DNA from: Akkermansia sp.
Lineage (GTDB): Bacteria > Verrucomicrobiota > Verrucomicrobiia > Verrucomicrobiales > Akkermansiaceae
DNA: 14,888 bases
Direction: 5' to 3'
NCBI GenBank assembly: GCA_020047775.1
Contig: JAIFNK010000027.1
Coordinates: 1-14,888 of the forward strand
How positions within the stretch are numbered: the stretch's first letter is position 1; the number at the start of each line of letters is the position of its first letter. This document shows positions 1 through 14,888 of the stretch, piece after piece. The notes beneath the pieces are model-generated. The model did not search any database. It worked only from the letters and a program-made list of their open reading frames with translations, and had not been told where the DNA came from. The translations under genes and the position numbers were made by a program.

Positions 1-2091
1 ACCCCCCGCAGCCTTGCCAACTCCAACGCCGCAGGTGGCCAGTTCAAGACCCGTTACCACCACAACGACATCTCCTACTTCGGCATCCAGGACTGGGATG
101 TCGGCGGTTTTTACGTAGCCTTCTACGACGGCCAATTCGTGCGCATCGACCACAACCTCATCTCCGAGGGACGCGGCTTCATCTCGGCCGGCATCTATCT
201 CGATTACACCAAAAACTACATCATCCACCACAACGTGGTCTGGAACGTCGAGTGGGGCATCAAAGTCCACGGCGAAAGCGGCGGTGTCAACAACACCCTC
301 GTTTACAACAATACCTCCAGCGTCCGCAACCTCTCCTCCACCCCCTACGGCCCCTTTGCCATCGGCAACGGTGCAGGCGTGAACAACGGCACCGTCCTGC
401 GAAACAACCTGCTCACCCTCGTCACCCCGCCCGCCGCCAACGGCTACAACGCCATCTCCAGCGGCACATTTTCTGCAGCCGAGATCACTGCCAATCTCGC
501 CTGGGACGGTGTGGCCAACTCCGCCACCGATCCGCGCTTCGCCGCCGCCGCCGCCATCCTCGATGCCACAGTCGTCGATTACCAACTCCAGTCGGGATCC
601 GCCGCCATTGACGCGGGCACTCCCGTCGGCTCCTACGTCCGCGACGGCATCACCATTCCGGCCTTTCCCGATATCGTCACCGGCTCGGCACCGGATGCGG
701 GTGCTTATGAATTTGGTGTCGCCCGGTGGGCGTCCGGAGCCAATTCCACCATCCCGCCCACCGCCGCATCAGACTTGGCCGTCACCGCCAATTCCTCCAC
801 TCAGATCACCCTGGCTTGGACCGACAACGCAAGCAATGAAACGGGCTTCAAGGTCGAACGTAGTCCCAACGGCTCCAACGGATGGACTCAGATCGCGACC
901 CTCGCCGCCGATGCAGTCACCTACGCCGATAGCGGTCTCGCCTCCTCCACGACCTTTTACTACCGCCTCCGCGCCACCAATGCGACCGGTGACTCCGCCT
1001 ACTCCTCCATCGCCAACGCCACCACTCACGCGGCACCTCCTATTGTTTCCGTTGCTCGTTGGAGCCTCGACAACACCCTAGTCGCCGTGCCCACCACCTA
1101 CAACGGTACCACTTCTGGCACCCTCGCCTACGCCACCGGCCAAGTCGGCACCCATGCACTCTCGCTCGTCGGCACTAACCACGCCTCCACACCCTTCGTC
1201 GTCAATCCCACCTCCAACTTGACCCTTACCGCTTGGGTTCGTCTCACCGGCACCGGATCCACCAACCCCACCATCGTTCAACAACAAGATGGCAGCGGCA
1301 CCGGTCGCGGCTGGCTCTACCGCAACAGCACCAGCGGCAAACTCTGCACTTACCTAGGCAACGCCGAGACCGCCTCCTCCGGCACCGTGCCCCTCGACAC
1401 CTGGACCCACGTCGCCCTGGTCAACACCGGCGGCACACTCCAGCTCTACCTCAACGGAGTCGCCGACGGCTCCGCCTCCCGCACCATCGAGTCCTGCGTT
1501 GGTGCCATGCGTTTTGGTGCCCACAAATCACTCACCACCAACAACTGGATCGGTATGCTAGACGATGTCCGCATTTACGACACCGCTATCAGCGCCCCCC
1601 AACTCGCCGCCCTTTACGCAGAAACCTCGACCCGGCCCTCCGCACTCGTCACCTTCCGAGCCACCTACGGCCTCGCAGCCGACGGCTCCCAAGACACCGC
1701 CACCCCCGGCGGCGACGGCGTCGCGAACCTCTTCAAATACGCCTTCAACATGCTCGGAGGCGGCACGGGCCAAGCCTCCAGCCTCGCCACCCCCAACTCC
1801 TCCGTTCTCGCCCCCGCTGGCTCCGCCGGACTTCCCTTCGCATCCGTTGACACCAATGGCAATTTCCAGATCACCTACATCCGCCGCAAAGCCTCCTCCT
1901 CGCCCGCGCCCGGCATCTCCTACGCCGTCCAGTTTTCCAACGACCTCGGTGTCTCCCCCCCCTGGGTTGTCAACCCCTCCGCCACCGAAAGCGTCACCAG
2001 CCTCGACGGCATCTTCGAGCGCGTGACCGTCACCGATTCTGCCGTCGCCCCCGCCAAACGCTTCGCCCGCGTGAAAATCACCAATCCGTAA
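1..2091 (+). CDS. Secreted right-handed beta-helix protein with FN3, LamG and C-terminal module (5' partial)
   Basis: The frame is open from the first base, so the true start lies outside the window; the GTG at 139 is internal. Counting codons from base 1, residues 1 to about 240 have short Asn/His/Gly-rich repeats typical of right-handed parallel beta-helices (HHN, DHN, YNN and RNN turns). They close with SAAIDAG and DAGAYEFG, a motif pair common at the end of such domains. Residues about 252-345 form a fibronectin type III domain (ITLAWTDNASNETGFKVER). Residues about 351-539 form a LamG/concanavalin-like sandwich (LTAWVRL, WTHVALV, LYLNGV, DDVRIYD). Residues about 548-696 are the C-terminal module shared with the next two proteins. 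Beta-helix proteins of this kind are often polysaccharide lyases or epimerases, but no catalytic residues can be assigned here, so the activity is unknown. The next gene starts 66 bases downstream in the same direction. Confidence 0.9.
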   Translation, partial: TPRSLANSNAAGGQFKTRYHHNDISYFGIQDWDVGGFYVAFYDGQFVRIDHNLISEGRGFISAGIYLDYTKNYIIHHNVVWNVEWGIKVHGESGGVNNTLVYNNTSSVRNLSSTPYGPFAIGNGAGVNNGTVLRNNLLTLVTPPAANGYNAISSGTFSAAEITANLAWDGVANSATDPRFAAAAAILDATVVDYQLQSGSAAIDAGTPVGSYVRDGITIPAFPDIVTGSAPDAGAYEFGVARWASGANSTIPPTAASDLAVTANSSTQITLAWTDNASNETGFKVERSPNGSNGWTQIATLAADAVTYADSGLASSTTFYYRLRATNATGDSAYSSIANATTHAAPPIVSVARWSLDNTLVAVPTTYNGTTSGTLAYATGQVGTHALSLVGTNHASTPFVVNPTSNLTLTAWVRLTGTGSTNPTIVQQQDGSGTGRGWLYRNSTSGKLCTYLGNAETASSGTVPLDTWTHVALVNTGGTLQLYLNGVADGSASRTIESCVGAMRFGAHKSLTTNNWIGMLDDVRIYDTAISAPQLAALYAETSTRPSALVTFRATYGLAADGSQDTATPGGDGVANLFKYAFNMLGGGTGQASSLATPNSSVLAPAGSAGLPFASVDTNGNFQITYIRRKASSSPAPGISYAVQFSNDLGVSPPWVVNPSATESVTSLDGIFERVTVTDSAVAPAKRFARVKITNP
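1642..2088 (+). other. Shared C-terminal module, copy 1
   Basis: This encodes the last 149 residues of the beta-helix protein. The order is a TFRATYGL lead-in, a GGDGVANLFKYAFNMLG motif, a variable Ser/Ala-rich linker, FQITYIRRKASSSPAPGISY, VQFSNDL, and an ending KRFARVKITNP. Copies 2 and 3 keep the same order. Over the 41 bases that encode the GVANL-KYAFNMLG core, copies 1 and 3 differ at about six positions, so homology is visible at DNA level too. Related modules are widespread at the C-termini of exported Verrucomicrobiota proteins. A role in sorting or anchoring is inference. Confidence 0.8.
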
Positions 2092-2157
2092 ACATCGCCC
2101 GCTCCGTCACGACCCAATTTCCGATCCCACCAATCCAGAATTTCAGAAAACCACTAA

Positions 2158-5100
2158 ATGTCATTAAGAGCCCGTCTCACTTCCGTCTTCGCGTTGTTGC
2201 TCACCGCCCTGCCTGCCACCGCCCAAGTTGGCGGAGGTATCACCGGAGGCTGCCTCGTCGGCGAGTATTTTGCCAACGCCGATCTCGCCGGCTCGCCGGC
2301 CTTTAATCGCCGCGAGTTGCGCCTCGACTTCGACTGGGGCACCGTTCTCCCCATCGGCGGCTCGAACGATCCGCGCTTCAAATCCGTGCCGACCGACAAC
2401 TTCTCCGCCCGCTACACCGGCAAGGTCATCGCCGCCTTCACCGAGACCTACACCTTCAAGGTCGTCGCCAACGACGGCGCACGCCTCTTCATCCGACCCG
2501 AGGGCGGCTCCTCGTGGACGACCCTCATCGACCAATGGTCCGCCGCCGGCACTTACACCGCCACTTCCGCGCTGGTCAAAGGCACCCGCTACGAGATCAA
2601 GGTCGAATACCGCGAACTCACCGGCACCGCCGCGCTGCGCCTGCTGTGGTCGAGCGCGAGCACGCCCGAGGAGATCATCGACCCGATCATGAACCAGGGT
2701 TTCAACATCACCTTTTGGGGCCAGCTATACGCCGACACCGCCAAGAGCATGCGCAACACCTGGGACGCCAATGGCAACGGCCCCGTGACCACGGATGTCA
2801 ACGGTTGGCCGCAGAACGACGCTGCAATCTATATTCAGGAATCCATGAACGTCGGGCTCGATTTTGACCCGCTGACGGCCGGCACCACCCACTTCTCGTT
2901 CAAGGGGCGGGGCGAAGTCTCGTTGCAGGGCAATTTCTCCAGCAGCTCGGCGGTGGTCACCTACAATGCCGCCACCAACACCTCGTCCGGCACGTTTACC
3001 ATGGCTTCAAATGGCTGGAACGCATCCAACATCAGGTTCACCAACACCGACCGCGACGGCCAGCTCCCCGTCCGGAAAAACGGCATCACCGACCTCAAAA
3101 TGATGCGTCCCACCGTCCCCGGCGGCTCCACGCCTTACCCCGCCGGCACCATTTTCATCGACCAGGCCCGCGCTGCGGTCGGCAAGTTCACCAACCTGCG
3201 CGTCAACCTGAACAACGCCAACGCCGAACGCCACTGGAGCGACCGCACCTTGCCCACCTATTTCAACCAATCCGTCGGCAAGAGCACCAAGAACTACTAC
3301 ACATACTCCGGCGGCGTGGACCCGAATCCCGGCGACAACAACAACTATCAATCGTGGGAATACTCGGTCATGTTGGCCAATGAGACCGGAGCGGATCTGT
3401 TCATCAATATCCCCGCCATGGCTTCCGGTTGGTCGCCGGCCGACACCACCAGCTACGTTTACAAGCTCGCCCAGCTCATCCGCTACGGCTCCGACGGCGT
3501 GAACCCCTACAGCGCCCCGACGGCCAACCCCGCCTATCCGCCGCTCAACCCGAACCTGCGGGTTTACGTCGAGATTTCCAACGAACTCTGGAACTCCTTC
3601 GGTGCCGCCTTCCGCCAGTATTTCGACATGAACGAAATGATGAAGGTGGATGCCCGCACCGCCCTTGGCAGCCCGACGGCCGACGATCTCGTGGACACCC
3701 ACGCGCGGCCTGCCGATTTTTCGATTCTCAATTTCGACAACCTGTCCACCGCCGTCGATGGCAATGGCAACTTCGTCAGCGGCAACGACTGGCGCATGCG
3801 TAAGATCATCCTGCGCGCCATCCAGGCCAGCAACATCTTCCGCAGCGTCTGGGGCGACGCCCAAATGGGCACCCGCGTCCGCCCGCTCTACCAGTGGCAG
3901 TATGAGAATGCCAATAACACCGCCAGCTCGCCGATGAAGTTCGCCGACGACTACTTCAACAACGGCGACGGCGGCAACCACGTGGCCACCCCGCATCCCC
4001 TGAACTACTTCATCTGGGGCGGCGGCGGCGCTTCCTACTACGGCGCGGTCAATGGCTACGGCGTCACCGACCAGCTCACCAACCCTAGTTTCGAGACCCC
4101 CGTCCGGCCCACCGGCTACAGCGCCGCCCCCGCCGGCTCCGGCTGGACCTTCACCGGCACCGCCGGCATCGCCCGCGACGCCGGTGCCGGCGACGACATC
4201 CCGCCCGGCTGGGCGGGTTCGCCCCAGTGCGGCTACATCGCCGGCACCGGCTCGATGTCCATGCAGGTCACCATCCCCGCCACCCAGACCTTCAACAGCT
4301 ATGCCTTCGTCTTCAAGGCCTTGAACCGCCTCAAAAACGGCGCAACCACCCCCGACACCCAGAAACTGCGGCTTTACGTCAATGGCGTGCTCACGGAGTG
4401 GAGATCCTTCAACCAGTCCAGCGGCTACACTCCCACCGCCTACGACGCCGGCAACCCCTGGAATTCCCTGGTCGTCTTTTGGTCGCCATCGACCCCGTAT
4501 TACTCCTCCGGCACCTTCACCGCCGCCCCCGGCACCACCATCACCTTGCGCATCGAAGGCAGCGCCGCCGCCGATCAAATCGCCTTCCTCGAAGACGTCC
4601 GCCTGGCCTCGGTGGACCGCACCTTCGCCGACGGCATGCCCGGCGGTGGCGAGGCCAACGGCCAGCCCGCCGGCTCCGGCTATCAGAGCGGGCTCAACGT
4701 CCAGGCCTCGTGGGCCTTCGCCTACGGTTTGAAATACACCACCTACGAGGGCGGATGGTCGCTCGGTGGCGACACCGGCGGCACCCCGTTGCAGAATACC
4801 GGGAAATTCCAATCCACGGAAGCCGCCGTGGCCAACACCAAGGCGATCAACATGTTCCACCAGGCCGGCGGCTACCTGAACACCTTCGGCACCTACAGCC
4901 TGTGGCCGCAATGGGGCGAAGCCGGCAGCGAAGAGGGTCTGCTGAATGTTTCCCAGTATCCGCTCATCTATTCCCAAGACGAGCGCATGAACAACCTGCG
5001 CGCCGAGCCCGCCAACGGCGTGTTCCTGCCCAACCATCTCGTCCTCGGCAACGCCTCCCTGGCCGACGGCGTCAGCGGCAACGTCACCGGGCGCAACTGG

Positions 5101-6639
5101 GTGAGTTGGAATGCCATCACCACCACCAGCAGCGACTACAACATCACCATCAACACCGGCACCGGCGGCAGCGCCCAGCTCTGGGTGGACGGTCTGCCCG
5201 TGGGTGCCGCGTTTACCACCGGTAGCGCCGTCACCCGCTCCGCCCTCCTGCCCAAAGGCATCCACAGCGTCCGGCTTCAGGGAATCAGTGGCAGCTATGC
5301 CCTTCAATCCATCTCTCTGGCCATTCCGGGCGCACCCGCCGCACCGGCCATCACGAGCATCACGGACGGCAGCGGTTCCAAAACCATCACCTGGTCCGCC
5401 GTCTCCGGAGCCACCGGCTACATCATTCGCTGGGGTGTGGACAAAGGCATTTACCTTGAGAGCGCGGACGTGACGAGCGGCACCACCCGTACTCTCACCG
5501 GCCTGAGCCACGACCAGACCTATTACTTCACCGTCGCCGCCTATAACGCCAACGGCCTCGGCCTGCCCTCCGCTGAAGTAGGCAGCACCTCCCTGGTGGA
5601 CGGCCAGTCCGGCCACCTCGCCCGCTGGGAGTTTGCCGGAACTACCGGCAACGAGGCCACCATGCCGCCCACTGCCAGCACCTCACGCCTAGTCATCGGG
5701 AGTCTCGCCCGCGGCCCCGGACTGGTGCTTTCCGGATACGGTCTCACCTACACCGCCGACAGCTTCGCCTACCAGCAGTCCGGCTCCACCGGCTCGACCA
5801 CTGCGGCAGCGGCCTTGAGCCTCGGTCACTACACGCAATTCACGGTCACCCCCGTGTCCGGCACCACCGTGAGCATCAGCAGCCTGCTCTACGCGCCCTA
5901 CTGGCAGAACACCGCCCCGGCCCTGGCGAACATCGGCATCGCCTACAGCATCAACGGCGGCGCGTTCACCATTGCCCCCGTCACCGGCACGCCGGGTTCC
6001 AACAACGGCACCCCGCTCACCGGCACGTTCACTGGAATCGCCGCGTTGCAAAACCTCACGGTGCCCGTCACCTTCCTCCTGCTTCATCCCAGCCTCGGCG
6101 AATATTCCTTCGCAGGCATCGGCCGCAACACGAACCTCGATGACATCGTTCTGTTTGGCAGCGTGAACAACTCGTCTGCGTCCACCGCTCTAGCTTCATT
6201 CCGCACGGCAAACAGCTTGGCCGCAAATGGCTCTCAAGACATGCTCACCCCTGCCGATGACGGTGTGGCCAACCTGCTCAAATATGCATTCAACATGCTC
6301 GGTTCCGGGGCAGGACAGGGGAGCACGCTCGCCACGCCCAACGCCGATACTCTCACGGCGTCAGGCACAGCAGGCCTGCCGCTCGTCGGATTGGAAGCCG
6401 GAACGGACAAGCTCCAGATCACCTACATTCGCCGCAAGGCGACCGCCTCCCCTGCACCCGGCATCACCTACACCGTCCAGTTCTCCAACGATCTCGGCGA
6501 GTCTGATTCCTGGGCGGCCAACCCTTCGGCAACCGGGAGCGTCACCTCCCTCGACACCACATTCGAGCGCGTTTCCATCACCGACTCCTTCACCCTAGCC
6601 AGCCGGCGTTTCGTCCGGGTCCGCGTCTCAACCCTTTAG
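2158..6639 (+). CDS. Secreted PA14 / clan GH-A-like glycoside hydrolase with inserted beta-sandwich, FN3 and C-terminal module
   Basis: The protein has 1493 residues. The ATG at 2158 is chosen because it starts a clear signal peptide (hydrophobic residues 10-20, cleavage near ATA|Q at 22/23). A PA14 domain spans about 33-172 (GEYFAN, YTFKVVANDGARLFI, LRLLWSS). The region from about 175 to 1055 looks like a divergent TIM-barrel glycosidase. VEISNELWNS places Glu476 where clan GH-A enzymes have the acid/base, and YTTYEGGW places Glu864 where they have the nucleophile. About 388 residues separate the two, because a beta-sandwich (about 640-820, starting NPSFETP and ending LEDVRLAS) appears to be inserted. 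FN3 follows at about 1058-1145, an unclassified sandwich at about 1154-1335, and the C-terminal module at 1344-1493. I cannot assign a GH family, so the substrate is unknown. It is probably exported to act on a polysaccharide. No clear Shine-Dalgarno sequence precedes the start. Confidence 0.88.
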   Translation: MSLRARLTSVFALLLTALPATAQVGGGITGGCLVGEYFANADLAGSPAFNRRELRLDFDWGTVLPIGGSNDPRFKSVPTDNFSARYTGKVIAAFTETYTFKVVANDGARLFIRPEGGSSWTTLIDQWSAAGTYTATSALVKGTRYEIKVEYRELTGTAALRLLWSSASTPEEIIDPIMNQGFNITFWGQLYADTAKSMRNTWDANGNGPVTTDVNGWPQNDAAIYIQESMNVGLDFDPLTAGTTHFSFKGRGEVSLQGNFSSSSAVVTYNAATNTSSGTFTMASNGWNASNIRFTNTDRDGQLPVRKNGITDLKMMRPTVPGGSTPYPAGTIFIDQARAAVGKFTNLRVNLNNANAERHWSDRTLPTYFNQSVGKSTKNYYTYSGGVDPNPGDNNNYQSWEYSVMLANETGADLFINIPAMASGWSPADTTSYVYKLAQLIRYGSDGVNPYSAPTANPAYPPLNPNLRVYVEISNELWNSFGAAFRQYFDMNEMMKVDARTALGSPTADDLVDTHARPADFSILNFDNLSTAVDGNGNFVSGNDWRMRKIILRAIQASNIFRSVWGDAQMGTRVRPLYQWQYENANNTASSPMKFADDYFNNGDGGNHVATPHPLNYFIWGGGGASYYGAVNGYGVTDQLTNPSFETPVRPTGYSAAPAGSGWTFTGTAGIARDAGAGDDIPPGWAGSPQCGYIAGTGSMSMQVTIPATQTFNSYAFVFKALNRLKNGATTPDTQKLRLYVNGVLTEWRSFNQSSGYTPTAYDAGNPWNSLVVFWSPSTPYYSSGTFTAAPGTTITLRIEGSAAADQIAFLEDVRLASVDRTFADGMPGGGEANGQPAGSGYQSGLNVQASWAFAYGLKYTTYEGGWSLGGDTGGTPLQNTGKFQSTEAAVANTKAINMFHQAGGYLNTFGTYSLWPQWGEAGSEEGLLNVSQYPLIYSQDERMNNLRAEPANGVFLPNHLVLGNASLADGVSGNVTGRNWVSWNAITTTSSDYNITINTGTGGSAQLWVDGLPVGAAFTTGSAVTRSALLPKGIHSVRLQGISGSYALQSISLAIPGAPAAPAITSITDGSGSKTITWSAVSGATGYIIRWGVDKGIYLESADVTSGTTRTLTGLSHDQTYYFTVAAYNANGLGLPSAEVGSTSLVDGQSGHLARWEFAGTTGNEATMPPTASTSRLVIGSLARGPGLVLSGYGLTYTADSFAYQQSGSTGSTTAAAALSLGHYTQFTVTPVSGTTVSISSLLYAPYWQNTAPALANIGIAYSINGGAFTIAPVTGTPGSNNGTPLTGTFTGIAALQNLTVPVTFLLLHPSLGEYSFAGIGRNTNLDDIVLFGSVNNSSASTALASFRTANSLAANGSQDMLTPADDGVANLLKYAFNMLGSGAGQGSTLATPNADTLTASGTAGLPLVGLEAGTDKLQITYIRRKATASPAPGITYTVQFSNDLGESDSWAANPSATGSVTSLDTTFERVSITDSFTLASRRFVRVRVSTL
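6187..6636 (+). other. Shared C-terminal module, copy 2
   Basis: These are the last 150 residues of the PA14/GH-A-like protein. The lead-in is SFRTANSLAANGSQD, then DDGVANLLKYAFNMLG, a variable linker with the conserved TAGLPL, LQITYIRRKATASPAPGITY, VQFSNDL, TFERVSITDS, and the ending RRFVRVRVSTL. It aligns end to end with copy 1 without needing large gaps. Confidence 0.8.
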
Positions 6640-6768
6640 CCCGCATTTCTCATGGGATCCGCAGCGCGAGCAGTTCATTGGCAATGACGAGTCCAACCGT
6701 CTGCGGCGGCGGCCTATGCACAACGGCTGGCATATCTAACCTATTTGATCAAACAACCCGATGTCCCT

Positions 6769-8325
6769 ATGAACCGATTGATCCTACCCCTATGCGCGGC
6801 CATCTGTCTGGTCATTCCGGCGCACGCACAGTCCACCTCGCTGCCTGCGGATCGTGGACGCGTCACCGTGGCCAGCATTCCGGACCCATACGGCGGTTCG
6901 AACTTGAAAGTGCTCCGCACAGATTCCAATACGCCGCTGCGGGCGGGCACCGCGTGGATTTGGGAAAAGCAGGGGCAGGAGGAGCCGGCGTCCTATTACG
7001 TCTCCATGCGGGCGAAAGGCTTGAATGCTGTGCGCATGATTCTCTTCGATACCTGGGAGGTGGAGGCATACACACCGGGTCCGCTCTTTACGCCGACCGA
7101 CTGGAATGACGCTGCTTATCGCACGCGGCAACTGGCCCGCATGGAGCGCGCGGTGAACTATGCATCCGCAAATGGGATGTATATCATCATCAATTCTCAC
7201 AACAAAATCCCCAACTACAACGAAACTTACGTCAATGCGCTTTGGACTCATGTCGCGCCCTATTTTGCCAACCGCACGCACGTCCTTTACGAATTGTCCA
7301 ATGAACCGATGAGCGGCATCGGTACCGACGGCGACATGGATATGGGAGGCAATGCTCAAAATTCGCCGCGTCTTCAAGCGCTCAAGCGCGGTTACGATAT
7401 CGCACGTGCCGGAGCGCCGAATACACACCTCATGATTCTCACTCCGCCAGGTATCAATGACAGTGCTCGCGGCACGGGTATGGGAAACCTCGCTGCCAGC
7501 TTTGCCGCTCTGCCCGGAACGACAGTGGATTGGACGAAGACCTCCGTGGCCTATCATCTTTACAACAATGACGCCGCCTACGGTGTCGCCAACAATGCCG
7601 CCAATCTTCGCAACCTCCACTCGCGCTTTCCTGCATGGCCATCCGAAAACGCTTTTCCGCCTGGCAATTTTCCCAGTGCCAACGGACTTGATCAATGGCG
7701 CTCCACGCCCTTTCCCATCAATGGCGTGAACGATCTCTGGGTGAATCAAACGTGCGAGCGGCTCGGGCTGGGCTGGGCGATGTGGTTCATGAATGGACAG
7801 AGCCAACTGGATACCAACTGGCCGATCATGATGGCCGATGCCAATGCCAAGGGCTGGAACTGGACGCCCGACCCTCTCACTGCGGCACCCTCAGCCTCTC
7901 CTGCTGACGGCAACATCACGGGTCCTGTTACCGTCTCCCTGAGTTCTTCCACACCGGGAGCCAGCATTCGCTACACCCTCGACGGCAGTGCTCCGTCGCC
8001 CACGCTCGGCACGCTTTACACCGGCACGCCGATCTCCATTTCCGCCACCACCACGCTCCGCGCCATGCCTTCGGTAGCAGCCTCCCGACGAGCGCCACGA
8101 GCACGTTTGTCTACACCCTCGTCATTCCGGTGTCCAACGTGCGGGTCAACGCCGGCGGCCCCGCCGTGGGCGTTTTCGCGGCGGACAGCGGGTTTTCGAC
8201 CAGCAATATCCAAGGCACGGGTGCGACCGTCACCACGGCGGGAGTCACGAACGCCGCCCCGGCTTCGCTCTACGATACCGAGCGCTGGAACTCGGGTTCT
8301 CTCACTTACACCAGTCCCGTACTGA
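6769..8325 (+). CDS. Secreted GH5-family-like endoglycanase, 5' part of a frameshifted gene
   Basis: The in-frame TTG at 6745 lies 24 bases upstream, but the ATG at 6769 is preferred because it begins a compact signal peptide (MNRLILPLCAAICLVIPAHA|Q). The catalytic domain spans about residues 25-370 and carries GH5 signs: MYIIINSHN, HVLYELSNEP with the acid/base Glu179, and WAMWFMNG on the last strand. Glu293 in FPAWPSENAFP is the likely nucleophile. Residues from about 372 begin a CHB_HEX_C-type module (GASIRYTLDGSAPSP). The natural frame is lost after Met433 (ATG at 8065-8067). The remaining 85 or so residues to 8325 are Arg/Pro/Ser-rich out-of-frame translation. The true continuation is in the +2 frame (8070-9059), giving an ancestral protein of about 763 residues. 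The catalytic domain is complete, so a truncated active enzyme is possible. It probably cleaves beta-linked glucan or mannan; the substrate cannot be told. Confidence 0.85.
   Translation: MNRLILPLCAAICLVIPAHAQSTSLPADRGRVTVASIPDPYGGSNLKVLRTDSNTPLRAGTAWIWEKQGQEEPASYYVSMRAKGLNAVRMILFDTWEVEAYTPGPLFTPTDWNDAAYRTRQLARMERAVNYASANGMYIIINSHNKIPNYNETYVNALWTHVAPYFANRTHVLYELSNEPMSGIGTDGDMDMGGNAQNSPRLQALKRGYDIARAGAPNTHLMILTPPGINDSARGTGMGNLAASFAALPGTTVDWTKTSVAYHLYNNDAAYGVANNAANLRNLHSRFPAWPSENAFPPGNFPSANGLDQWRSTPFPINGVNDLWVNQTCERLGLGWAMWFMNGQSQLDTNWPIMMADANAKGWNWTPDPLTAAPSASPADGNITGPVTVSLSSSTPGASIRYTLDGSAPSPTLGTLYTGTPISISATTTLRAMPSVAASRRAPRARLSTPSSFRCPTCGSTPAAPPWAFSRRTAGFRPAISKARVRPSPRRESRTPPRLRSTIPSAGTRVLSLTPVPY
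8065..8072 (+). other. Frameshift site splitting the GH5 gene
   Basis: The upstream frame reads TTLRAM and the downstream frame reads AFGSSLPTSATSTFVYTL, which together continue one CHB_HEX-type module. Adding one G after the ATG at 8065-8067 (GG instead of G) restores a single open frame from 6769 to 9059. No slippery heptamer is visible, so this is a one-base deletion or a sequencing or assembly error rather than programmed frameshifting. Confidence 0.85.
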
Positions 8326-9059
8326 CCCCAGGCCGCACCTACACCGTACGCCTGCATTTTGCCGAACGTTATGTCGGGGCCGCCAATCAACGGCGTTTCA
8401 ATATCGGCATCAACGGCGCGACCAGCGGGCCCAACTACGTCGCCAACTTCGATGTGTTTGTCGCCGCCGGCAATGCGATGAACAAAGCCGTCGTTCGCGA
8501 TTTCTCGGACATTACCCCAGACGCGACCGGGTGCATCACCGTCACGCTTAGCCTCGGCAGCATACAACTTCCCATGCTCAACGGCCTCGAAATCCTCGCG
8601 CAACCCATTGGCTGGGAACTTTGGCAAGGCTCGAACTTTTCGCCCAGCCAACTCCTCGACCCATCCATCAGCGGACCGGACGCCGCCCCCGCCGGAGATG
8701 GCGTCGCCAACCTGCTGAAATACGCCTTCAATATGCTTGGAAATGGCCCTGGCCAAATGGCCACTGTCGGATCGCCTAACGCGGCCGTGCTCACCGCAAA
8801 TGGTTCAGCCGGACTTCCGCTCCTCGGTGTCGAATCTGCCAGCGACAAACTCCAACTCTCCTACATCCGCCGCCGAGCCTCCTCGAATCCCGGCATCACC
8901 TATACTGTCGAATTCAGCGACGCTCTAACATCATGGCGGATCAACGCCTCCGCCACCGAATCCACCACCGCCATTGATCCCACCTTCGACCGGGTCACAG
9001 TCACCGACTCGATCAACCCCGCCAGACGCTTCGTCCGTGTGCGCATCACAATGCCATAA
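8130..9059 (+). CDS. Malectin domain plus C-terminal module, 3' part of the frameshifted GH5 gene
   Basis: The coding frame is open back to about 8043 and its sense reading picks up at the frameshift near 8068; the GTG at 8130 is only the first possible start in this frame. There is no signal peptide and no credible ribosome binding site, so this is not an independent gene. From the GTG, about residues 4-155 form a malectin-like carbohydrate-binding domain (VRVNAGGPA, YTVRLHFAERY, RRFNIGING, VVRDFSDI, LNGLEIL). The last 148 residues are the shared C-terminal module. Malectin modules bind glycans and commonly accompany secreted glycosidases. In the intact protein this part would follow GH5 and the CHB_HEX-type module. 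The reading frame beyond the shift is undamaged to the stop, which points to a recent mutation or a base error. If real, translation of the first half ends at 8325 and the enzyme loses its binding and sorting parts. Confidence 0.8.
   Translation: MSNVRVNAGGPAVGVFAADSGFSTSNIQGTGATVTTAGVTNAAPASLYDTERWNSGSLTYTSPVLTPGRTYTVRLHFAERYVGAANQRRFNIGINGATSGPNYVANFDVFVAAGNAMNKAVVRDFSDITPDATGCITVTLSLGSIQLPMLNGLEILAQPIGWELWQGSNFSPSQLLDPSISGPDAAPAGDGVANLLKYAFNMLGNGPGQMATVGSPNAAVLTANGSAGLPLLGVESASDKLQLSYIRRRASSNPGITYTVEFSDALTSWRINASATESTTAIDPTFDRVTVTDSINPARRFVRVRITMP
8613..9056 (+). other. Shared C-terminal module, copy 3
   Basis: These are the last 148 residues of the frameshifted GH5 protein: WELWQGSNFSPSQLLD lead-in, GDGVANLLKYAFNMLG, SAGLPLLGVE, LQLSYIRRRASSNPGITY, VEFSDAL, TFDRVTVTDS, and ending RRFVRVRITMP. 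The lead-in is less like those of copies 1 and 2, but the order and the core motifs are kept. Confidence 0.8.
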
Positions 9060-9605: not shown

Positions 9606-10427
9606 ATGAAGAAACTTCTCAGCAGTGTGTTGGCGATCTCCATGATCGCGCCTGCGGCGGCAGATGTTTCTTCTCCACACATCAAGGCTTACTACACGCG
9701 GCTCCCGTATGACGATCACGGGTTCACCGGAAAGTATGCGGACATCGTCGTGGAGTTGCCGCAGCGCGGGCAGGTTGTTTTCAGCCGGGAGTTTGGTTAT
9801 CACCCGTATTGGTTGCCGGTCGGTCGAGAAATAGAAGGAGTTGCGAGGCTTATTCCGCGCAAAAGCATCAACCCGGAGGAACGTCCGGACGCTCACAACA
9901 TCGCATCCAACGCCGCCATCATTGCGCGGACGGATTCTAGCGTCACCGTCCGCTGGCGTTATGCGCCGGACATCACGAAACTTTCGTTCACGGATTTCCG
10001 CGCGGCTTACAACGAGGTCGGCAATCCTGCGCATTTCTACGCCGACTACGCCGACGAATACTTTGTCATTCACGCCGACGGTCAAGTGGAGCGCGTCGTG
10101 AAGGACGGCAGCGAACGTCTCGCTGACTGGAACGATCCGGCCAACCAAATCGAGCAAACTTTGCAGCTCGCACCCGACGGTATCCGCGAAACCGCGTTTC
10201 GCCCTGCGCGACATTCCAAGACTTCGGAAAGCCCGGTCGCAGGTTCACCGGTGAAGTCTGGCCGCGCCGGGAATCTGGTCTGTCACTGGCGTTTTGACGA
10301 AGGCGCGGGCTTTGCGACCACGGAAAAGCAATCCGGCACGGCCTGCAGCATCGGCGGCATTGAAGCCTACTGGCGGAAGGGGGTGTCCGGCACGTGTTCG
10401 TTTGAGATAGAAGGAAAGTCATCATGA
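9606..10427 (+). CDS. Truncated N-terminal part of a large exported LamG-type protein
   Basis: The ATG at 9606 begins a signal peptide (MKKLLSSVLAISMIAPAAA|D) and follows purine-rich GAAGAAG. Residues 22 to about 200 form an unnamed beta-rich domain with well-kept blocks (YYTRLPYDDHGFTGKYADIV, VFSREFGYHPYW, SVTVRWRYAPDITKLSFTDF, ADYADEYFVIHADGQVERVV). As I recall, this domain occurs at the start of long LamG-containing proteins of Verrucomicrobiota and Planctomycetota. From about 228, CHWRFDEGAGFATTEKQSGT starts a LamG-type fold. It stops after about 35 residues, at GVSGT, where a full fold would continue with a Leu-x-Phe-Asp-Gly strand. The final residues CSFEIEGKSS appear to be the translated leader of the next gene, and the TGA at 10425-10427 overlaps its ATG. 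I read this as a 3' deletion junction near 10392-10400. Any function is unknown, and it may be a pseudogene. Confidence 0.7.
   Translation: MKKLLSSVLAISMIAPAAADVSSPHIKAYYTRLPYDDHGFTGKYADIVVELPQRGQVVFSREFGYHPYWLPVGREIEGVARLIPRKSINPEERPDAHNIASNAAIIARTDSSVTVRWRYAPDITKLSFTDFRAAYNEVGNPAHFYADYADEYFVIHADGQVERVVKDGSERLADWNDPANQIEQTLQLAPDGIRETAFRPARHSKTSESPVAGSPVKSGRAGNLVCHWRFDEGAGFATTEKQSGTACSIGGIEAYWRKGVSGTCSFEIEGKSS
10410..10416 (+). promoter_or_regulatory. Shine-Dalgarno sequence for the gene at 10424
   Basis: AAGGA at 10411-10415 lies eight bases before the ATG at 10424. It is the clearest ribosome binding site in the window and supports that start. It also supports reading the last codons of the upstream truncated frame as the native leader of this gene. 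Confidence 0.65.
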
Positions 10428-14115: not shown

Positions 14116-14493
14116 CTACATTCCCGGCCTCAAGAAATACCTGATGTGCGTCTCGCGCCGGTCCTCACGGCCGTTCGCGACGTTATCCGCCCACTGCACC
14201 ACCCTGGGCACCCAGCGCCGGGTGTCGTTGTGGATGCGGGAAACCTCCGGTTTGAACCATTCAAAAGCGGGATGATCGTCGAGGGAGATCAGCGAAACAT
14301 CGCGCGGCACCACGAGTCCTCTCCCTAGCAGATACTGCTGCGTGGCGAAAAACAACGCCGGTTCGCCCGGTAACAGCACGGTTGGCGAGGTGTGACGGAA
14401 CAACGAATCCAGACACCGGTGGAAGCCCTGTGAGTCGTCCTCCCAATCCGGCAGGTTGTATGCGTCGGTTTCGATGCCCAGACGTTGCCCGCT
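14116..14493 (-). pseudogene. LacI-family transcriptional regulator, C-terminal fragment
   Basis: About 125 residues of a LacI/PurR-type effector-binding domain run from LGIETDAYNLPDWEDDSQGF to the TAG at 14116. Typical signs are the segment SPTVLLPGEPALFFATQQYL followed by LGRGLVVPRDVSLISLDDHP, the late-subdomain strand pattern of LacI-family proteins, and the closing RIHNDTRRWVPRVVQW helix. The helix-turn-helix and the first half of the periplasmic-binding-like fold are missing. The open frame continues upstream to 14643, but that part (MDEMLGAIVHAVVVVIVTAV and on) is the antisense of an exported-protein C-terminus on the plus strand, not regulator sequence. The fragment cannot bind DNA in the usual way. 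In intact form it would be a natural regulator of the downstream fucosidase gene, which lies in the same direction 106 bases away. Confidence 0.7.
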
Positions 14494-14888
14494 ACCTTCA
14501 GTCTTGATGGCAGCGGCTTCCTCGTCTCCGGCGGCGGCCCGGTTGGCTTCGCCGCTTGGCAGGCTGCCAACGGCACTCTCGGCGACCGCAGTGACGATCA
14601 CGACAACGACGGCGTGGACAATGGCACCGAGCATTTCATCCATGGCACGGTAGCCAACTCCGGCTTCACCGCGCTGCCCGGTGTGGACAAGGCCCTCGAT
14701 GGCACGCTCAACGTCACCTGGACCAAGGCCGGCACCTACACAGGTTCATACCCCACGCACTACGTGGTGGAAACTTCGACCACCCTTGCAGGCCCCTGGA
14801 CCATCGAGACCTCACCCGGAAACGTCAGCTTTCCATCGGCAAACGAGGTGAAATACACCTTCCCTGGAGGCCCTGGCTACAGCGGTAA
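14494..14888 (+). CDS. C-terminal part of an exported protein with a related C-terminal module (5' missing, runs off the window)
   Basis: On the plus strand the frame is open from 14434 to the last base, but sensible sequence begins near 14494. It reads TFSLDGSGFLVSGGGPVGFA, then AAWQAANGTLGDRSDDHDND, GVDNGTEHFIHGTVANSGFT, VTWTKAGTY, HYVVETSTTLAGPWTIETSP, and ends at GPGYSG with the codon cut by the window edge. The order (aromatic lead-in, DxDxDGVxNG calcium-type loop, YxVExSxxL strand, and presumably a Phe-x-Arg ending outside) matches the general plan of the three C-terminal modules in this window. It is more distant from them than they are from each other. There is no start codon, ribosome binding site or signal peptide, so the 5' part of the gene was lost at the junction with the regulator fragment. 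Confidence 0.6.

Follow-up and report, generated by a model that had tools for sequence, protein, structure and literature searches.

The described systems closest to the element treated here are the type IX secretion system (T9SS) of Bacteroidota, whose C-terminal domain (CTD) folds as an immunoglobulin (Ig)-like beta-sandwich, and the PEP-CTERM/exosortase system, of which exosortase is tied to exopolysaccharide in the literature. For Akkermansia, one paper reports an outer-membrane proteome and a prediction of 23 PEP-CTERM proteins (PMC4960237), a 2025 study takes enzyme localisation from SignalP except for one GH16 (PMC11790493), and a third source calls the mucin adhesin still unknown and mentions BACON domains (PMC11137150). 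The route by which large enzymes that degrade polysaccharides and mucin come to lie outside the cell in Verrucomicrobiota appears to be an open question. Here we describe a C-terminal module of about 155 residues carried by three neighbouring genes in 14,888 nucleotides of DNA from Akkermansia sp. (contig JAIFNK010000027.1 of assembly GCA_020047775.1), hereafter called the window; the assembly, G000 in our collection, is 57% complete and 3.06 Mb in size. This module is real, widespread and unannotated, and with moderate confidence we take it to work like a sorting or retention domain. A literature search, judged by titles and the starts of abstracts and with most subscription papers outside its coverage, found no description of such a module.

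An earlier, sequence-only reading of the window had proposed that three proteins share a C-terminal module of about 150 residues although their catalytic parts are unrelated, and this is borne out. The three copies are pairwise 53 to 59% identical over about 155 residues, with 61 invariant columns, BLASTP of copy 1 against copy 3 gives an E value of 2e-46, and each copy ends at a stop codon, in agreement with the extreme C-terminal position claimed for them (Table 1). The parts upstream of the copies are unrelated, comprising FN3 and LamG domains in the first protein, PA14, GH-A-like and FN3 parts in the second, and GH5, CHB_HEX_C and malectin domains in the third. At the DNA level the repeat blocks are 67 to 84% identical, which indicates diverged paralogous modules and no recent copy. 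Also as proposed, the TIM-barrel (GHL6) and GH29 proteins of the window lack the module: neither these nor a 273-residue open reading frame at 9606 matched a profile of 84 members better than chance.

The first gene lacks its 5' end because the contig starts there, and its choice_anch_Q match, at 23.7 bits, lies slightly below the cut-off of 25. In the second, the signal peptide and the GH-A assignment were read from the sequence, and Pfam names PA14 and FN3 only. The GH5 protein does have copy 3 in its downstream frame, as had been claimed, but the gene is frameshifted rather than intact, since its catalytic and malectin/module parts sit in different, overlapping frames; the frameshift (6745-9059) is either an assembly error or a real lesion. 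A fourth, diverged example had also been pointed out. It is weak against a single copy (E = 0.04) but matches the 84-member profile at 15.6 bits (E = 2.5e-6, four sequences searched); its calcium-type loop reads DHDNDGVDNGTE, and its C-terminal position is not visible because the contig ends there. Adjoining it, at 14116-14450 on the reverse strand, is a stretch that we take to resemble the C-terminal part of a LacI-type regulator; a start region is seen for neither, and the pair may be a contig-end chimera or gene remnants.

Table 1. Module copies and the frames that carry them in the window
Feature	Coordinates	Strand	Remarks
5'-truncated protein with module copy 1	1..2091	+	beta-helix-like in the sequence-only reading; choice-of-anchor-Q-like + FN3 + Laminin_G_3
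Module copy 1	1627..2088	+	ends KRFARVKITNP, then stop
Signal peptide + PA14 + GH-A-like + FN3 protein with module copy 2	2158..6639	+	
Module copy 2	6172..6636	+	ends RRFVRVRVSTL, then stop; sequence given to AlphaFold2
GH5 catalytic frame with CHB_HEX_C_1	6745..8325	+	overlaps the 8130..9059 frame
Malectin domain + module copy 3, in the second (downstream) GH5 frame	8130..9059	+	
Module copy 3	8604..9056	+	ends RRFVRVRITMP, then stop
Diverged fourth module	14485..14886	+	intact DxDxDGxxNxxE loop; reaches contig edge before last strand

The module is one homologous family, without a name in Pfam or NCBIfam. Two peptide patterns derived from the window copies, run against the genome collection, gave 40 loci, 39 of them in records named Verrucomicrobiota and one in a metagenome-assembled genome labelled as a cyanobacterium (L026), and family alignments of 36 members (A2) and later 84 members (A3) were made. 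The approximate consensus is PxGDGxxNLLKYAF ... YxxExSxDLxxW ... ERV ... RFxRVxV-end. Over the 84 members the most conserved positions are D30, G31, N34, L35, A39 and F147, and the terminal motif keeps F147 in 81, R149 in 74 and V/I152 in all 84. Pfam-A and NCBIfam recognised nothing in the module of the window protein, and among the 84 members neither gave a match above a printed cut-off. Thirteen Pfam and 13 NCBIfam families appeared at E <= 0.1 over the 84 members, mostly in one member each, in an alignment scan that prints no cut-offs for such scattered matches; one of them is TSP3_bac (PF18884; one member, E = 0.0099). The commonest, DUF3999 (PF13163), matched one stretch in eight members (best 25.5 bits, spanning about 76 of 424 positions) and was rejected as the identity of the family after five members examined singly (L068, L073, L076, L079 and L080) all fell below its cut-off of 30 bits. 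Those five are Akkermansia-like, and the match may mark a distant relation. Module proteins P0027, P0104, P0108 and P0117 stand in records labelled Burkholderiales; like L026 they are probably misbinned or misnamed, and would otherwise reflect transfer.

The position seen in the window is by far the commonest across the family. In three closed genomes (G254, G291 and G021) the A3 profile gave 84 matches in 83 unique genes; the stop was included for 80, and the other 3 continue beyond the sequence analysed. In 73 of the 83 no more than 10 residues separate the module from the stop, where random placement would give about 2.4 terminal modules in 80, and in a further 3, all partial profile matches, it ends 27 to 69 residues from the stop. 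It is terminal in 48 of 53 genes at loci of the species collection. A search of 5.8 billion proteins with copy 2, covering proteins of about 820 to 2,610 residues, returned 150, and in all 120 of those listed and examined the module ends within 10 residues of the terminus. A terminal F-x-[RKHQ]-hydrophobic-x-hydrophobic motif is present in 116 of these 120 and in 74 of 89 fetched carriers. Some copies lie elsewhere: L084 (G305) and L116 (G291) have two modules, one of them C-terminal, and in L023, L030, L034, L148, L149, L157 and L170 about 270 to 420 residues follow the module. Pairs of these internal-module proteins share endings (PWNP/PWTP; GKALGDDMVDLL), which hints that they have one or two C-terminal domains of a different kind; the end of L030 presumably resembles a lamin-tail domain.

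Carriers are also enriched in export signals, scored here by a simple heuristic (60-codon setting) that is cruder than SignalP and misses some visible signal peptides. Among 81 closed carriers (from G254, G291 and G021, plus one from G000) 56 pass, against 67 of 265 genes in a background taken from 20 stretches of G254 that were picked by hand (p = 2e-12); when the background is restricted to genes of at least 300 residues, 43 of 142 pass. Other settings gave 46, 62 and 63 of the 81 carriers against 54, 77 and 85 of the 265, and 83 of the 114 listed database carriers that start with M are positive. The sequence-only reading had expected a profile search to find the module at the C terminus of signal-peptide proteins, and both position and enrichment agree with it.

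The proteins so marked are diverse. In 46 of 75 eligible carriers, chosen at random under a size limit, Pfam and NCBIfam scans named 64 Pfam families, each limited to 4 carriers at most, so that no shared substrate is apparent; the cargo includes subtilases, a sulfatase, RCC1 and delta-60 beta-propellers and Ig repeats, and NCBIfam choice-of-anchor domains D (two carriers) and M (one). G021 is an Akkermansia-like genome, and probably Akkermansia itself judging from its family, its gene content and its sialidases, which form large, nearly uniform clusters. Its five carriers are a sulfatase, a GH18 protein with LamG, a BNR sialidase, a PMP-repeat protein and a short BACON protein. No GH16 is among these five, which, set beside the one GH16 localised otherwise in the 2025 study, argues mildly against the module as the only surface route. 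A search for sialidase homologues found 245, and among the 120 that were listed the module is present in 21, in every case ending within 6 residues of the terminus; some homologues lack it, so module and enzyme are separable. An ELWxxDGT-repeat protein of the window's own genome ends in the module, and of 120 listed homologues 5 have the T9SS tail PF18962 and 3, its own copy included, have the module. M36 peptidase models named for T9SS, rhombosortase or myxosortase matched 1 or 2 carriers each (E about 1e-11); these matches were not used because cut-offs were not shown and accessory domains may be shared, and a reading of them as tail exchange was dropped.

AlphaFold2 predicts for window copy 2 (predicted local distance difference test, pLDDT, 95.2) a helical part that resembles a DxDxDG-type loop, followed by an Ig/FN3-like sandwich, with the chain ending in its last, basic strand (RFxRVxV); a second, distant member was likewise predicted with high confidence (pLDDT 91.2). 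The fold neighbours of this prediction are of the Ig/FN3 type and all weak, and they include the carbohydrate-binding CBM21, CBM56 and Wzt carbohydrate-binding domain. These neighbours would suit an unrecognised carbohydrate-binding module (CBM), directed at the substrate or at the cell's own exopolysaccharide and C-terminal by happenstance, which we regard as possible though rather unlikely. Many carriers are indeed glycan-active or contain LamG, malectin, PA14 or BACON domains, module genomes have exosortase with its link to exopolysaccharide, and the galactose-binding domain F5_F8_type_C_2, the sole carbohydrate-binding name among the matches, appeared in 1 of the 84 members (E = 0.033). 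However, no known CBM family in Pfam or NCBIfam matched any of the 84 above a printed cut-off, so that the characterised carbohydrate-binding family named by the sequence-only reading as counter-evidence did not appear; the carriers also include the subtilases, the sulfatase and the RCC1 and delta-60 propellers; and the position is stricter than we would expect of a binding domain.

The loop itself raises another alternative, that a calcium-loop-derived, Ig-like domain stabilises the C terminus of long secreted proteins and has no targeting role. Of 81 carriers, 52 keep an intact DxDxDG-type loop (K being accepted as its final residue), the full calcium loop is found in a minority of the alignment members (17 of 84), the carriers are often long and multidomain, and internal copies exist. 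Yet the three window copies have lost the loop ligands and kept the terminal strand, the adjoining GH29 and GHL6 proteins manage without the module, and a cap would need no single family across so many architectures. We consider this explanation improbable.

Of 288 Verrucomicrobiota genomes surveyed, from 151 genera, 110 have the module, and these represent 63 genera; it was also found in 37 of 39 close relatives, G000 being included in each count. At most 13 candidates per genome were scored in the 288-genome survey, so some genomes counted as lacking the module may hold it; in four other genomes included in both surveys it was found both times (10, 8, 6 and 9 matches, against 10, 8, 8 and 9 with all candidates scored). 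Matches number 21 in the incomplete G000, 46 in G254, 33 in G291, 5 in G021 and at least 102 in G305 (102 of 234 candidates scored).

This distribution is associated with exosortase, which occurs in 216 of the 288 genomes; it is present in 109 of the 110 module genomes, against 107 of the 178 others (Fisher p = 7e-17, the genomes being non-independent), or, counting only the stronger hits sorted by eye, in 92 of 110 and 57 of 178. The sole module genome in which exosortase was not found, G113, belongs to a genus in which other genomes do contain it. At the genus level exosortase occurs in all 63 module genera and in 118 of 151 overall (p = 8e-10), and at the family level, counted by eye from tables, the module occurs in 33 of 63 and exosortase in 53 of 63 (p = 2.4e-4). 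Within the Akkermansia-like genus g2, 10 genomes have both, 1 the module alone, 5 exosortase alone and 6 neither (p = 0.06). As a control for large secretomes we used Laminin_G_3, scoring at most 12 matches per genome; in the 116 genomes with at least 10 such matches, the module occurs in 0 of 24 without exosortase and 53 of 92 with it, a result that leaves descent standing as a cause of the link. PEP-CTERM matches (E <= 0.1) follow a similar pattern in a chosen set of 30 genomes, numbering at least 9 in each of 15 module genomes and none in 7 of the 15 others. The two export classes that the sequence-only reading had supposed are borne out in related closed genomes, with module and PEP-CTERM matches (the latter at E <= 0.1) coexisting in G254 (46 and 85), G291 (33 and 52) and G021 (5 and 26).

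The module proteins themselves are not canonical exosortase substrates, because no transmembrane-like segment was found in the last 45 residues of any of 92 carriers, 3 of which are cut short in the sequence analysed, or of any of 120 database proteins. The co-occurring gene set that had been anticipated is found only in part, as exosortase, without a PEP-CTERM-like tail on the carriers and with descent as a confounder, and the association may reflect a shared envelope or exopolysaccharide, or shared descent alone. More speculatively, and on the doubtful side, the module could mark an undescribed Verrucomicrobiota sorting pathway beside PEP-CTERM/exosortase, dependent on the same envelope or exopolysaccharide and bringing large enzymes to the surface by the dozen in each genome; if it exists, its cargo in Akkermansia-like gut bacteria would include sialidases, sulfatases and GH18 enzymes.

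That the module is a true T9SS CTD or a PEP-CTERM variant we think very improbable. Its position, its predicted Ig-like sandwich, the swap with T9SS tails in ELWxxDGT proteins and the co-occurrence of exosortase would fit, but the missing transmembrane-like segment already contradicts PEP-CTERM, and the profiles are unlike T9SS tails. Neither TIGR04183 nor PF18962 was among the families matched by the 84 members, and hhalign of the module against five T9SS tails gave a probability of 0.1, with no profile similarity. The C25 (PorU-type) peptidase, at E <= 0.001, was found in 4 of 30 genomes and above its cut-off in 2, and is absent from most module genomes tested; T9SS membership was rejected on the tail profiles together with this distribution. 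The two strong matches lie in the Verrucomicrobiota genomes G178 and G251, 26 of the 30 having none.

The reading that we prefer, and to which we give an even chance, takes the module for a folded C-terminal domain with which Verrucomicrobiota sort proteins to the cell surface or retain them there, a role that we infer from the anatomy of the carriers. They would cross the inner membrane by Sec, the module would fold last, in the periplasm, and it would then serve as a common handle by which a component of the outer membrane or cell surface would export the protein or hold it outside. In this it would play the part of the T9SS CTD of Bacteroidota, although it is not itself such a domain, and enzymes that lack the tag, the window's GH29 protein among them, would be periplasmic. 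Sorting or retention is favoured over substrate binding because the position is strict across carriers of many activities.

Several results weigh against it. With regard to partner machinery, 12 of 15 module genomes tested gave no C25 match, and SprA matched in 0 of 22 genomes, although no control genome gave a match either. Type II secretion was rejected as a distinguishing partner, GspD-like secretins matching in 36 of 38 genomes irrespective of the module; all of these matches stayed below the family cut-off, and the Akkermansia-like module genome G021 gave partial matches only. Neither C25 peptidases nor secretins account for where the module occurs, nor does SprA as far as a search with a silent control can show. 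A conserved neighbour was likewise rejected, none being recurrent enough among 232 genes at 41 loci (55 of these genes being carriers); the sole cluster of non-carrier genes at three or more loci, metalloprotease-like, occurs at 3. With regard to the module itself, 7 of the 83 copies have at least 308 residues after them, unlike a strict terminal signal, 4 of the 120 listed database proteins have an additional copy, tandem doubles that misfit such a signal, and 25 of the 81 carriers fail the signal-peptide heuristic at the 60-codon setting, some of them looking like signal peptides by eye. Because of the internal copies, the tandem copies and the CBM-like fold neighbours, carbohydrate binding and end-capping are kept alive beside sorting or retention. 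The interpretation first offered for the window is partly supported: the module is overwhelmingly C-terminal and enriched in signal-peptide proteins, whereas a T9SS-type partner is unsupported and placement at the surface is deduced. A shared, foldable, unannotated handle on up to about 100 proteins per genome would make the question of surface placement testable, and annotators could use it to recognise one class of exported protein.

Judged by sequence, the module is neither a T9SS CTD nor a PEP-CTERM signal, and its likeness to each described system is partial. With DUF3999 it shares the weak match to one stretch in 8 of 84 members, below the cut-off in the five examined singly. Many members have a DxDxDGxxNxxE-like loop reminiscent of the calcium loops of the TSP3/dockerin type (PF18884), but it is a single loop joined to a sandwich, the window copies lack its ligands, and TSP3_bac is matched by that one member of the 84. 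Like PEP-CTERM/exosortase (TIGR02595/TIGR02602), the module is C-terminal, occurs in many copies per genome and is found in the same genomes, but it has no C-terminal transmembrane-like segment, and both classes coexist in one genome. Compared with the T9SS CTD it has roughly double the length and a helical part at its N-terminal end, the profiles are dissimilar and a T9SS partner was not found; nevertheless, both lie at the extreme C terminus of many unrelated signal-peptide proteins, both are Ig-like sandwiches, in the module by prediction, and ELWxxDGT proteins carry either the one or the other.

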